Below are positions 16,225 through 33,870 of a stretch of DNA of 34,623 bases, piece after piece. The notes under the pieces were generated by a model. It was not told where the DNA came from and made no database searches. It was given only the letters and a program-made list of their open reading frames with translations. The first letter of the stretch is position 1. Each line of letters opens with the position of its first letter. A program made the translations under genes and the position numbers. The stretch is from an uncultured Oscillospiraceae bacterium (GTDB lineage: Bacteria > Bacillota > Clostridia > Oscillospirales > Oscillospiraceae). Where the stretch lies: contig CAJFUI010000076.1 of the NCBI GenBank assembly GCA_904420145.1, positions 1-34,623 of the forward strand. Reading direction: 5' to 3'.

Positions 16225-16260
16225 GATAAATGGACCTTATCAGGTTCTTACAATTTCATC

Positions 16261-16355
16261 CCTTATCAAGAGTGGCGGAGGGAACGGCCCGATGAAGCCA
16301 CGGCAACCTGCTTTCGGCAAGGTGCCAATTCCGGCGGAAACGCAAGATGAGGAAA
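16261..16355 (+). promoter_or_regulatory. SAM-I (S-box) riboswitch
   Basis: CCTTATCAAGAGTGGCGGAGGGAACGGCCCGATGAAGCCACGGCAACC...GGTGCCAATTCCGGC...GATGAGG is the canonical S-box core; upstream of metK. Confidence 0.95.
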
Positions 16356-16366
16356 CCAAAAGTTTC

Positions 16367-16389
16367 GACACGCTCCGCCGGAGCGTGTC
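16367..16389 (+). terminator. Riboswitch-associated terminator hairpin
   Basis: GACACGCTCC-GCC-GGAGCGTGTC followed by TTCTCATTTTG. Confidence 0.75.
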
Positions 16390-16438
16390 TTCTCATTTTG
16401 CCCAGAAATTTCAGAAAGGAAAAGAAAGGAAGCAAACT

Positions 16439-17593
<1,155 letters not shown>

Positions 17594-17855: not shown

Positions 17856-18707
17856 ATGAAACCCTTAATTTTTCAAACTGATTTCGGCCTGCAGGACGGC
17901 GCGGTCTGCGCCATGTACGGCGTGGCCTACTCCGTCTGCCACGACCTGACGGTTCATGATCTGACCCACGACATCCGCCCCTACGACATCTGGGAGGCCA
18001 GCTACCGCCTGACCCAGACGGTGAACTACTGGGAGGAGGGCACGGTGTTCGTCTCTGTGGTGGACCCCGGCGTGGGCTCCACCCGGCGGAGCATCGTGGC
18101 CAAGACCGCCGCAGGGCAGTATATCGTCACCCCGGACAACGGCACGCTGACCCATATCAAGCGCCACGTGGGGCTTGTGGCCGCCCGCAGCATCGACGAG
18201 AGCGTCAACCGCCTGCCCAACTCCGGGGAGAGCTACACCTTCCACGGCCGGGATATCTACGCCTACACCGGCGCCCGCTTAGCCGCCGGCGTCATCACCT
18301 TTGAGGAGGTGGGTCCCGAGGTGGAGGTGGACTCCGTCATCGAGCTGCCCACCACCCCCGCCCAGCGCACCGCCGACGGCGGCGTCACCGGCACCATCGA
18401 CGTGCTGGACGTGCGCTTTGGCAGCCTGTGGACCAACATCCCCAACACCCTCTTTAAGGAGCTGGGGCTCCAGTTTGGGGAAAAGGCGGAGATTTTAGTG
18501 GAAAACGACACCCGGACCCTCTACCGCAACATCCTCACCTACGCCAAGAGCTTTGCCGACGTCTATGTGGGCGAGCCGCTGATCTATATCAACTCCCTGG
18601 ACTGCCTGGCCGTGGCCATCAACCAGGGCTCCTTCGCCAAGGCCTACAACATCGGCACCGGCAACAGCTGGCACATCACCGTGCGCAAATTCAAGGGGTA
18701 TCTGTAA
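17856..18707 (+). CDS. S-adenosyl-L-methionine hydroxide adenosyltransferase (SAM hydrolase, DUF62 family)
   Basis: MKPLIFQTDFGLQDGAVCAMYGV...VVDPGVGSTRRSIVAKTAAGQYIVTPDNGTLT...FHGRDIYA; DUF62 motifs. SD AGGAG. Confidence 0.9.
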   Translation: MKPLIFQTDFGLQDGAVCAMYGVAYSVCHDLTVHDLTHDIRPYDIWEASYRLTQTVNYWEEGTVFVSVVDPGVGSTRRSIVAKTAAGQYIVTPDNGTLTHIKRHVGLVAARSIDESVNRLPNSGESYTFHGRDIYAYTGARLAAGVITFEEVGPEVEVDSVIELPTTPAQRTADGGVTGTIDVLDVRFGSLWTNIPNTLFKELGLQFGEKAEILVENDTRTLYRNILTYAKSFADVYVGEPLIYINSLDCLAVAINQGSFAKAYNIGTGNSWHITVRKFKGYL

Positions 18708-21139: not shown

Positions 21140-21963
21140 CCAACCTGTTCAACTATATCGACCGCCCCTCGCCCATCCACCGCCTCACCGGCGCCACGAA
21201 GCTGGTGTGCCTGCTGCTGTGGTCCTTCGCCTCCATGGTGACCTACGACACCCGGATCTTGATTTTTATGCCGGTAGTGTCCTTTGCCCTGTTCTCCGTC
21301 TCCAAGATCCGGCTGAAGGACGTATCCTTTATGCTGTGGGCCACCGTCGTGTTCATGGTGCTCAACAACGTGATGGTGTTCGTGTTCTCCCCCCAGCATG
21401 GCGTCAGCCTCTACGGCAGCCGGACGGTGCTCTTTACCATTGCGGGGCCCTATGTGGTGACGGCGGAGCAGCTGTTCTACCATCTGAATCTGGTCCTCAA
21501 GTACTTAGCGGCCATCCCCATGGTACTGCTGTTTGTCTGCACCACCAACCCCAGCGAATTTGCCGCCTCCCTCAACCGCATCGGCGTCAGCTACAAGATC
21601 TCCTACTCGGTGGCCCTGGCCCTGCGGTATATCCCCGATATCCAGCGGGAGTACCACGACATCTCCCAGTCCCAGCAGGCCCGGGGCATTGAGATGAGCA
21701 AGAAGGAGTCCCTTGTCAAGCGCTTGAAATCGGCCTCCGCCATTTTGATCCCCCTGATTATGTCCAGCATGGACCGCATCGAGGTGATCTCCAACGCCAT
21801 GGAGCTCCGGGGCTTCGGCAAAAACAAAAAGCGCACCTGGTACATGGCCCGGCCCTTCGCCAAGACGGACATCGCGGCTATGGCGGTGTGCGCGCTGCTG
21901 CTGGTTGCGGTCATCTGCGACGCGATTGTGATGGGCAGCCGGTTCTATAACCCCTTTGTGTAA
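21136..21963 (+). CDS. ECF transporter T component (transmembrane)
   Basis: ATGA overlap with ATPase; MTNLFNYIDRPSPIHRLTGATKLVCLLLWSF...SQQARGIEMSKKE...AMELRGFGKNKKRT; EcfT coupling motifs. Confidence 0.9.
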   Translation: MTNLFNYIDRPSPIHRLTGATKLVCLLLWSFASMVTYDTRILIFMPVVSFALFSVSKIRLKDVSFMLWATVVFMVLNNVMVFVFSPQHGVSLYGSRTVLFTIAGPYVVTAEQLFYHLNLVLKYLAAIPMVLLFVCTTNPSEFAASLNRIGVSYKISYSVALALRYIPDIQREYHDISQSQQARGIEMSKKESLVKRLKSASAILIPLIMSSMDRIEVISNAMELRGFGKNKKRTWYMARPFAKTDIAAMAVCALLLVAVICDAIVMGSRFYNPFV

Positions 21964-21980: not shown

Positions 21981-22008
21981 AAAAGGCGGGACTTGCGTCC
22001 CGCCTTTT
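21981..22008 (+). terminator. Intrinsic terminator of the ECF operon
   Basis: AAAAGGCGGGAC-TTGC-GTCCCGCCTTTT followed by T-run. Confidence 0.88.
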
Positions 22009-22014
22009 TTTGCG

Positions 22015-22645
22015 CCCCTTCGGCGGAGGAGCTTTTTGGCAGTCCCTGCCGCGGGAGGTTTCGTGCCAACAGGCGCGGGAAGCTTTTGGGGCCTTTCGCG
22101 CCCCCTGGCGCGAGTGACTTTTGTCTCTGAACAAAAGTCACCAAAAATCAGCTTAGGGGCAAGCCCCTAAGAACCCCATGGGATTAGGCGGGGGCTGTTA
22201 GTCATCGCGAAATTTTTTTACCTCGTAGGTTCCGCCAGTCCCGGTGCAACACTGTATTGACCGCCGTCCTCTACCCGCCCTTTCCGCTGCGCTAAGGGCT
22301 CCTGCGGCGGGTTAGTGGAGAGCGGTGTTCGATCGCTTTCGCACACTGCACTTCCCCACACCACCGCAGCAGGCGCTCCCCATAGGGACAGAAAGTGCAA
22401 AGTGTCCCGCCGCAGCAGGGCGTAACGCCCGGGGCAGGTGCGGCAGTCCTCTCGGTGGCAACGCGCCGGTGATAGAAGAGAGCCGTACAGCGGGCATTAG
22501 GGAGTTCTTAGAACCGCAGGTTCTAAGCGGCTTTTTGCCTCCTTTTTGGCCGACCAAAAAGGAGGCCGCCCCGAGGGGCGGAACCTCTCGGCTGCCGAAA
22601 GCGGCAAAAAACCGCGTGGGCGGCAGAAACACTCCTCACTGAGTC
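22015..22645. repeat. Non-coding hairpin-rich island (possible repeat element or structured RNA)
   Basis: About 630 bp without a credible ORF; hairpins at 22097-22112, 22114-22141, 22152-22171, 22507-22527, 22537-22566 and 22566-22581. Confidence 0.5.
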
Positions 22646-22711: not shown

Positions 22712-23245
22712 ATGAACCTGTGGCACGATATCAAGCCCTCCCGCATGCAGCCTGAGGACTTTCTCGCTGTCATTGAGATTGAAAAGGGCTCGAAAAACAA
22801 ATATGAGCTGGACAAGGAGACCGGCGCCCTGCGTCTGGACCGGATTCTCTATACCTCCACCCACTACCCCGCCAACTACGGCTTTATTCCCCGCACCTAT
22901 GCCGACGACGGGGACCCGCTGGATGTGCTGGTGCTGTGCAGCGAACCGATTCGTCCCATGAGCCTGGTACGGGTCTATCCCGTGGGCTACTTCACCATGC
23001 GGGACGGCGGCGCCTTGGACGACAAAATCTTGGCGATTCCCTATGAGGACCCCATGTACAACGGCTACCGCGATCTCCGGGAGCTGCCTCGGCATGTGGC
23101 GGACGAGATCAGCCACTTCTTTAGCGTCTACAAGCATCTGGAGCCGGACAAAAACGCCGAGGTGGACAGTGCCCACGGCCGGGCCGAGGCGGTGGAGGTC
23201 ATCCGCCGGGCATTGGACCGCTACATCGAAATATTCTGCCGATAG
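22712..23245 (+). CDS. ppa: Inorganic pyrophosphatase (type I)
   Basis: MNLWHDIKPSRMQPEDFLAVIEIEKGSKNKYELDKETGALRLDRILYTSTHYPANYGFIPRTYADDGDPLDVLVL. Confidence 0.95.
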   Translation: MNLWHDIKPSRMQPEDFLAVIEIEKGSKNKYELDKETGALRLDRILYTSTHYPANYGFIPRTYADDGDPLDVLVLCSEPIRPMSLVRVYPVGYFTMRDGGALDDKILAIPYEDPMYNGYRDLRELPRHVADEISHFFSVYKHLEPDKNAEVDSAHGRAEAVEVIRRALDRYIEIFCR

Positions 23246-32182: not shown

Positions 32183-32944
32183 GTGGCAAAGGCTGTGGCA
32201 ATCGTAAATCAAAAGGGTGGCGTGGGAAAGACTACCACCTGTGTCAACTTAACGGCTGCGCTGAAGGAGCTGGGAAAACGGGTGCTGCTCTGTGACTTTG
32301 ATCCCCAGGCTAACGCCACCTCCGGCATGGGTGTGGACAAGACCCTATCCCTCGGCGTCTACGACGCCCTAATCAACGGTGTCGCGCCGGACAAGCTGGT
32401 GGTCTCCACACGGTACGGAGACGTTCTCCCCTCCAGCAAGGGCTTGGCAGGAGCGGGGATCGAGATGATCTCCATGGACAACCGGGAATTTCTCCTGCGG
32501 GATATTCTGAAAGCCTTGGAGAGCCGCTACGATTTCATCATGATCGACTGTCCTCCCTCTCTGGAGCTGCTGACCCTCAACGCCCTGTGCGCCGCGGACA
32601 CCCTGCTGGTGCCAGTGCAGGGGGAGTACTACGCCTTGGAGGGCCTCAGCGATTTGATGAACACCGTCCGGCGGGTAAAGCGGAACATGAACCCCCGGCT
32701 GGAGCTGGAGGGGGTGCTCCTCACCATGTTCGACAGCCGCACCAATTTGGCCATTCAGGTGGCGGAGGAGGTCAAGCGCTATTTCCCCGGCAAGGTCTAT
32801 ACCACGGTGATCCCCCGAAATGTGCGCCTCAGCGAGGCCCCCAGCCACGGAAAGCCCATCAATGTCTATGATCGAACCTCCCGCGGCGCCGAGGCCTATC
32901 GCCTCCTTGCGGAGGAGTTTTTACGCAAGAACCGGGGAAAATAA
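32183..32944 (+). CDS. parA: Chromosome partitioning ATPase ParA/Soj (GTG start)
   Basis: MAKAVAIVNQKGGVGKTTTCVNLTAALKELGKRVLLCDFDPQANATSGMG; GTG at 32183 with GGAGG SD. Confidence 0.96.
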   Translation: MAKAVAIVNQKGGVGKTTTCVNLTAALKELGKRVLLCDFDPQANATSGMGVDKTLSLGVYDALINGVAPDKLVVSTRYGDVLPSSKGLAGAGIEMISMDNREFLLRDILKALESRYDFIMIDCPPSLELLTLNALCAADTLLVPVQGEYYALEGLSDLMNTVRRVKRNMNPRLELEGVLLTMFDSRTNLAIQVAEEVKRYFPGKVYTTVIPRNVRLSEAPSHGKPINVYDRTSRGAEAYRLLAEEFLRKNRGK

Positions 32945-32991
32945 TATCCCTGCACCAACGCTCTACATACTCTTAGAAAGGAAGCTGCCCT

Positions 32992-33870
32992 ATGGCGAAG
33001 GCCACCGGTTTGGGAAAGGGGCTGGACGCCCTTTTAGGCGAGGAGTTCACCGCCGCCGACGGCGCCGTTGTCTCCTCCCTGCCGATCTCACAAATTGAAA
33101 ACCACGCGGGTCAGCCCCGCAAGCACTTTGATGAAGCTGCTCTGGAGGAACTGGCGGAGTCCATCCGCGCCCATGGCATTCTCCAGCCTCTGACGGTCCG
33201 CCGCCTCGGCTCCGGCTACTATCAGATTATCGCCGGGGAGCGGCGGTGGCGGGCCGCTAAGTTAGCCGGCCTGCGGGAGGTCCCCGTCATCATCATCGAG
33301 GCCGATGACCGCAAAGCCATGGAGTTAGCTATGATTGAAAACCTCCAGCGAGAGGATCTCAACCCCATGGAGGAGGCCGACGGCTACCATATGCTCATGG
33401 AGCAGTACAGCATGACCCAGGAGCAGGCCGCCGAGCGGGTGGGAAAATCCCGCAGCGCCGTGGCCAACGCCCTGCGCCTGCTGCGCCTCTCCCCTGCCCT
33501 GCGGGAGCTGGTGGAGGGAGGCGAACTCTCCGCCGGCCACGCCAGGGCCCTGCTGCCCCTGGGGGAAAAGCTGCAGGAGCAGGCAGCTCAAACCGTCCTG
33601 CGGGAGGCCCTCAGTGTCCGGCAGACGGAGCAGCTGGTTAAGCGGCTGCAGTCCCAGGGCGCGGACAAGCCCCCCCGCAAAAAGCCCGCGGTGGACTATG
33701 TGGCGGAGGCGGAGCGCAGCCTCTCAAGCCAGCTGGGCCGGGCCTGCCACATCGCCCACGGCCGCAAGCGGGGAAAGGTTGAAATTGAGTACTACGGCGT
33801 AGACGATCTGAACAATCTCTTGGATGCCCTGGCCACTCTTCAGCTGAAAAAGCACGAGGAACAGAGCTGA
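32992..33870 (+). CDS. parB: Chromosome partitioning protein ParB/Spo0J
   Basis: MAKATGLGKGLDALLGEEF...QPRKHFDEAALEELAESIRAHGILQPLTVR...AGERRWRAAKLAGL. Confidence 0.96.
   Translation: MAKATGLGKGLDALLGEEFTAADGAVVSSLPISQIENHAGQPRKHFDEAALEELAESIRAHGILQPLTVRRLGSGYYQIIAGERRWRAAKLAGLREVPVIIIEADDRKAMELAMIENLQREDLNPMEEADGYHMLMEQYSMTQEQAAERVGKSRSAVANALRLLRLSPALRELVEGGELSAGHARALLPLGEKLQEQAAQTVLREALSVRQTEQLVKRLQSQGADKPPRKKPAVDYVAEAERSLSSQLGRACHIAHGRKRGKVEIEYYGVDDLNNLLDALATLQLKKHEEQS

Follow-up and report, generated by a model that had tools for sequence, protein, structure and literature searches.

What is the non-coding island that separates ecfT (ending at 21963) from the pyrophosphatase gene ppa (starting at 22712) in the window, the 34,623-nucleotide stretch of DNA analyzed here? 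The window is part of a metagenome-assembled genome (G000) that comprises 2.28 Mb in 173 contigs and is 83% complete. A first-pass annotation, made from the sequence alone, had described the island as lacking a credible ORF and as bounded by hairpins in mirrored order, and had left three readings side by side: a non-autonomous mobile element with subterminal hairpins, a dispersed intergenic repeat, or a large structured RNA. The hairpins it quoted are all present, at 22114-22141, 22152-22171, 22507-22527, 22537-22566 and, for CCGCCCC/GGGGCGG, 22567-22581, and no listed ORF in the island resembles a gene. The mirror order is more complete than was claimed, as an outer hairpin 1 (CGCGCC..GGCGCG, 22098-22113) is found on the left too; from outside to inside, both sides read as a GC hairpin, a CTTTT/AAAAG hairpin and a CTTAG hairpin. 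The island also folds far more strongly than its dinucleotide shuffles, with z = -6.7 as RNA and z = -5.9 for the bottom strand as DNA.

Comparison of the island with its own genome by blastn returned 98 matching pieces in many places, with resemblance to other copies running from ~22034 to ~22611. The ~90-nt end module is present in this genome in at least 110 copies, mostly as inverted pairs around a centre of 0.3-0.8 kb. A covariance model, R1, was built from 70 of these modules (alignment A1), the two in the window included, and its only two strong hits in the window are modules that face inward. Together, the blastn and covariance-model searches show directly that the island is a dispersed intergenic repeat, as the annotation had proposed. 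The parts of the element and its upstream neighbor are as follows.

21981..22012, + strand: intrinsic terminator of the upstream ecfT, a 12-bp perfect hairpin (21981-22008) followed by a T-run, adjacent to the element and probably not part of it
22034..22616, no strand: whole repeat element; limits approximate, the outer boundary not being base-exact
22088..22177, + strand: left end module (R1, 95.0 bits)
22098..22113, + strand: left hairpin 1, CGCGCC..GGCGCG (alignment A1, helix 1)
22114..22141, + strand: left hairpin 2, 11 bp, loop CTCTGA (helix 2, covarying)
22127..22130, + strand: left pseudoknot strand 1, CTGA inside the hairpin-2 loop, pairing with TCAG (helix 3 and register test)
22148..22151, + strand: left pseudoknot strand 2, TCAG (helix 3)
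22152..22171, + strand: left hairpin 3, CTTAGGGG..CCCCTAAG, L type (sequence; helix 4)
22178..22500, no strand: centre with its own inverted repeats (alignment A5, consensus fold)
22501..22589, - strand: right end module, inverted (R1, 95.6 bits)
22507..22527, - strand: right hairpin 3, CTTAGAACC..GGTTCTAAG, R type, which always pairs with L (sequence; helix 4)
22528..22531, - strand: right pseudoknot strand 2, GCCG on the minus strand, pairing with CGGC of the hairpin-2 loop
22538..22565, - strand: right hairpin 2, 11-bp core, loop ending in CGGC (inverted repeat and R1)
22567..22581, - strand: right hairpin 1, CCGCCCC..GGGGCGG (sequence; R1)

Each module consists of hairpin 1, hairpin 2, an A-rich linker and hairpin 3. 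Four bases immediately preceding the inner hairpin pair with the six-base loop of hairpin 2; the resulting H-type pseudoknot has a constant geometry, with an 11-bp stem, a 6-nt loop, a 6-nt linker and 4 bp of pseudoknot pairing. When this structure is drawn on A1, 96.8% of cells are paired, compared to 76.2% in shuffles, and the covariation score is 0.527 compared to 0.157, a value that none of 500 shuffles reaches; sliding the partners by 1-3 columns lowers the score to 0.13 or less. The structure was drawn from the A1 sequences themselves and is therefore favored over its slid versions. The size of the score gap and the four-way variation of column pair 43-65 (G-C 31, C-G 19, U-A 10, A-U 9) are independent of its having been read from A1. 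The pseudoknot register was tested by applying one rule, with stem, loop and linker fixed at the 11 bp, 6 nt and 6 nt given above, to all collected loci. Pairing at the predicted register is Watson-Crick in 92.6% of cases in the own genome (n = 68), 98.6% in the genus (n = 52), 70% in Burkholderiales (n = 5) and 78.1% at other loci (n = 159, mostly from other genera), the last sample not being unbiased since it was gathered partly with the pattern of one hairpin-2 type; the other registers tried gave roughly 0-39%. The hairpin-2 loop is complementary to the bases preceding hairpin 3, and the two covary as the 4 bp of the pseudoknot. At some loci, longer sequences (e.g., CAGAGCGCAACCGGGCAAAGCCCGGCTCTTAGCGCGGAGG) replace or interrupt hairpin 2 (L017 1876-1960, L002 1480-1545, L142 1039-1188, L007 1430-1530).

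The modules are organized as pairs of unlike ends. All 24 plus-minus neighboring pairs lying 250-700 bp apart in the own genome combine one L-type and one R-type end. In the related genomes G003, G005 and G006, 24 of 25 loci, chosen for containing a module, carry an inverted pair, although the left copy of one (L142) scores only ~32 bits; at the twenty-fifth (L076) only a weak, partial match was seen on the right. Hairpin-2 types are largely end-specific (V = 0.84), and free shuffling of these types between ends is not supported. Tandem arrays of modules exist too, and at one locus G007 has one unit more than G004; tandem duplication or recombination changes copy number as well. Within the element the centre is conserved among the genome copies, but its covariation is low, with double changes in eight of the 67 pairs predicted by the consensus fold.

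Sites of the element vary between related species. For 15 elements the flanking sequences were located in G003, G005 and G006, and where both flanks lie on one contig most sites hold an element in two or more species, at differing lengths. For two elements of G006 (L135 and L049), G005 has the same gene pair but no element, the convergent genes being separated only by terminator hairpins; the difference would reflect either gain or loss, and loss in G005 is a possible cause of both empty sites. No target-site duplication was identified, the empty sites being available only between species at ~88-90% identity, where the ends are not resolvable. Many sites are common to species at 88-93% identity, which indicates that movement is slow or old. 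For the window copy, the annotation had suggested a search for an empty site between ecfT and ppa orthologs, but gene order around ecfT-ppa is not conserved in relatives and so no clean empty site was obtained. There is no module near ppa in G006, which retains ppa-zapA-U32. As a separate observation, ppa adjoins zapA/U32-peptidase genes in G006 and is missing from the corresponding place in G003 (L117 1500-2030 versus L120), at ~93% identity. The annotation had named a single-copy sequence lacking covariation, expression and variable insertion as the outcome that would count against it; instead, the element has many copies, strong covariation and varying insertion sites.

The module is widespread in the genus and beyond it. 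R1 modules occur in all 11 genus members, with 9 to 90 in each of the ten others (70 in G009, 66 in G005). In an evenly drawn sample of the family, R1 detects modules in 86 genomes out of 301, from 43 of the 106 genera, and none in the other 215 genomes; copy number is highly variable. In a sample of the class it does so in six of 391 genomes, four of them outside the family. The E-values behind these counts are rough and most of the genomes searched are incomplete. The module design is common to many gut Oscillospiraceae and, less closely, to some proteobacteria. In the literature library searched, no paper describing these repeats was found. The module core was also seen at a contig end in a MAG labeled Rikenellaceae (L237 4660-4692), which may be a binning error, and the module pattern is present in two putatively viral IMG/VR contigs (L289, L290).

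A search with the hairpin-2 pattern identified, among many Oscillospiraceae, Pelomonas sp. Root405 and Root1237 and a Burkholderiales MAG, and R1 finds inverted pairs in these Betaproteobacteria (e.g., L240, 269-344 on the plus and 730-803 on the minus strand). A related hairpin is present at least ~40 times per replicon in several Paraburkholderia records, with two inverted copies flanking ~500 bp in one stretch, and also occurs in Burkholderia, Aeromonas, Pseudoalteromonas and Pasteurella. Loop-linker complementarity can be seen by eye in Paraburkholderia, Aeromonas and Pseudoalteromonas. R1 scores are weak in Aeromonas (23.2 bits), Burkholderia (19.4 bits) and Pseudoalteromonas (15.0 bits), and the Paraburkholderia copy has none; common ancestry of the clostridial and proteobacterial modules is therefore plausible, but not proven. 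In Pseudoalteromonas, a match to the Rfam motif TwoAYGGAY (RF01731) begins ~14 nt after the module (65.1 bits), and in Aeromonas such a match falls just below threshold (41.5 against 43). In both records the motif thus adjoins a module of the same hairpin-2, linker and pseudoknot design, but the Pseudoalteromonas match does not overlap the end module. TwoAYGGAY has no match in the island at E <= 2, and at the curated threshold none of 20 clostridial loci matches it. Its discoverers considered it probably an RNA, but not cis-regulatory (PMC2864571). One Pseudoalteromonas stretch (L294 1754-3438) consists of ~750-bp repeat units that each contain a module together with a TwoAYGGAY match.

The proximity of the module to this motif, along with the strong folding and covariation, would be consistent with a transcribed structured RNA, with pseudoknots at the ends of its one or two divergent transcripts. 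We consider this quite unlikely, and the large structured RNA named by the annotation finds no support in our data. Across hairpin 2 and the pseudoknot, read on the module strand, there are 13 G-U and 24 A-C cells. Wobble pairs are thus no more frequent than A-C mismatches, and since a selected RNA would favor G-U, this speaks for DNA over RNA, although the argument rests on few cells and the A-C excess is not strong evidence for the opposite strand. The two modules are in opposite orientation, so that a single transcript would carry one sense and one antisense copy, the covariation of the centre is low, and the window copy lies after a terminator. At the curated threshold, Rfam has no family matching the island (in a search of the whole window) or the 20 clostridial loci, and at E <= 2 nothing relevant matches the island. 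A passive role at gene 3' ends, in which the hairpins block transcription or exonucleases between neighboring genes and the repeat spreads by recombination only, seems less probable still. Of 40 elements, 37 flank at least one gene 3' end and many, as judged by eye, come after a T-run; the neighboring gene pairs are codirectional in 26 cases, convergent in 11 and divergent in three, as raw counts from simple codon-usage gene calls with no intergenic background set. However, simple insulation requires neither a pseudoknot of fixed geometry nor a constant L/R polarity, and in the cases read the neighboring genes already have their own terminators.

Another alternative takes its evidence from the position of the elements on the chromosome. 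In G161, a one-contig genome whose record begins at dnaA, 17 of the 29 modules are no more than 50 kb from dnaA. Six genomes of five genera, G161 included, have 29 elements near dnaA compared to 3.0 expected. Since G161 prompted the origin hypothesis, the count without it is the fairer test: windows on the dnaA contigs of the five further genomes hold 16 elements compared to 2.2 expected, with a combined p of about 1e-7, this and the other p-values being approximate because the element totals of G009 and G005 were estimated from module counts, genome sizes were rounded, and window sizes follow the dnaA contig, up to 50 kb per side. The count covered genomes with a complete module list, which left out others with a located dnaA contig, such as G062 and G072. 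Immediately upstream of dnaA, elements are found in both G005 and G209. For the own genome the evidence is indirect: one element is found 4 kb from dnaA on contig C150, and in the window parA and parB (32183-33870) are about 10 kb from the element, their G161 homologs being ~19 kb from dnaA. These positions would suit a chromosome-organizing or replication-linked DNA site that shapes the origin domain, serves in cohesion or acts as a protein-binding array, and that is kept by selection rather than by its own spread. This appears unlikely, if less so than an RNA, as regions distant from the origin hold copies as well, copy number differs greatly between genomes, with no modules detected in 215 of 301 family genomes, and a gene-content test of origin proximity at the other element loci of the own genome was not significant (10:5 versus 17:16). 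If the origin bias holds, the repeats would be a natural tag for the interplay of replication and mobile DNA in poorly studied gut bacteria.

On balance, the island is probably, though far from certainly, a copy of a non-autonomous, propagating DNA element that is MITE- or REPIN-like in its logic and whose ends are recognized as folded single strands. The mobile-element reading of the annotation is the best mechanistic one, given the inverted pairs of ends, the variable sites and the lack of an ORF. We infer that a host or helper enzyme would recognize the ends when each is folded as a single strand of DNA, as could happen on the lagging strand while the chromosome replicates; that the loop tetranucleotide may act as a guide by base-pairing with the tetranucleotide beside hairpin 3; and that copying or movement would then bring the element to new sites, with origin-proximal DNA strongly favored. 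The mobilizing enzyme was not found, and no transposase is linked to the element. A RAYT/Y1 transposase was rejected as a general mobilizer: PF01797 occurs in only three of the 11 genus genomes, though these are incomplete, and has no match in the own, 83%-complete genome.

A comparison of the element with known systems shows likenesses and disparities. REPINs and BIMEs are extragenic, many-copy, inverted pairs of palindromes with predicted single-stranded DNA folds, of several types and with tandem clusters (PMC3116915, PMC8266576), and are associated with a Y1 transposase, RAYT (TnpA-REP). Like these, the element has an inverted module pair as its unit (24 of 25 loci; 24 L-R pairs). Unlike the REP, a palindrome of 20-50 nt with GTAG, the module has a consensus of ~90 nt with three hairpins, a pseudoknot and no conserved GTAG; the spacing of 0.3-0.8 kb and the origin-proximal bias also differ, and RAYT was not found in most carrier genomes of the genus. 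As in MITEs, the element is short, non-coding, bounded by inverted terminal repeats, dispersed between genes and variably present, but it is without a known parent transposase, its ends are conserved more in structure than in sequence, and no target-site duplication was seen at the identities given above. In IS200/IS605 elements the two ends are not inversions of each other, and a transposase gene is present in those that are autonomous, whereas the element described here has inverted copies as ends and no ORF. In IS608, of this same family, a short guide beside a hairpin pairs with the cleavage-site tetranucleotide (PMC8266576), to which the loop-linker pairing of the element is comparable by analogy only.

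Tentatively, and with more doubt than attaches to the mobile-element reading itself, these repeats could represent an undescribed, widespread class of DNA elements in Clostridia and Proteobacteria, defined by inverted pseudoknot ends of fixed geometry with covarying, guide-like tetranucleotides and spreading by a new origin-near, replication-tied, single-stranded route, of which TwoAYGGAY would be an unrecognized fragment. The element may account for an orphan Rfam motif. Compared with the simple hairpins at REP and IS200/IS605 ends, recognition would go a step further here, relying on a folded DNA end in which the pseudoknot is conserved while its pairing sequences vary yet stay matched. Many copies sit at contig ends, and the element may explain part of the assembly breaks in such genomes. 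Elsewhere in the window, at 16260-17593, a SAM riboswitch lies immediately 5' of metK, and a SAM-hydrolase-like gene follows at 17856-18707, an ordinary arrangement.
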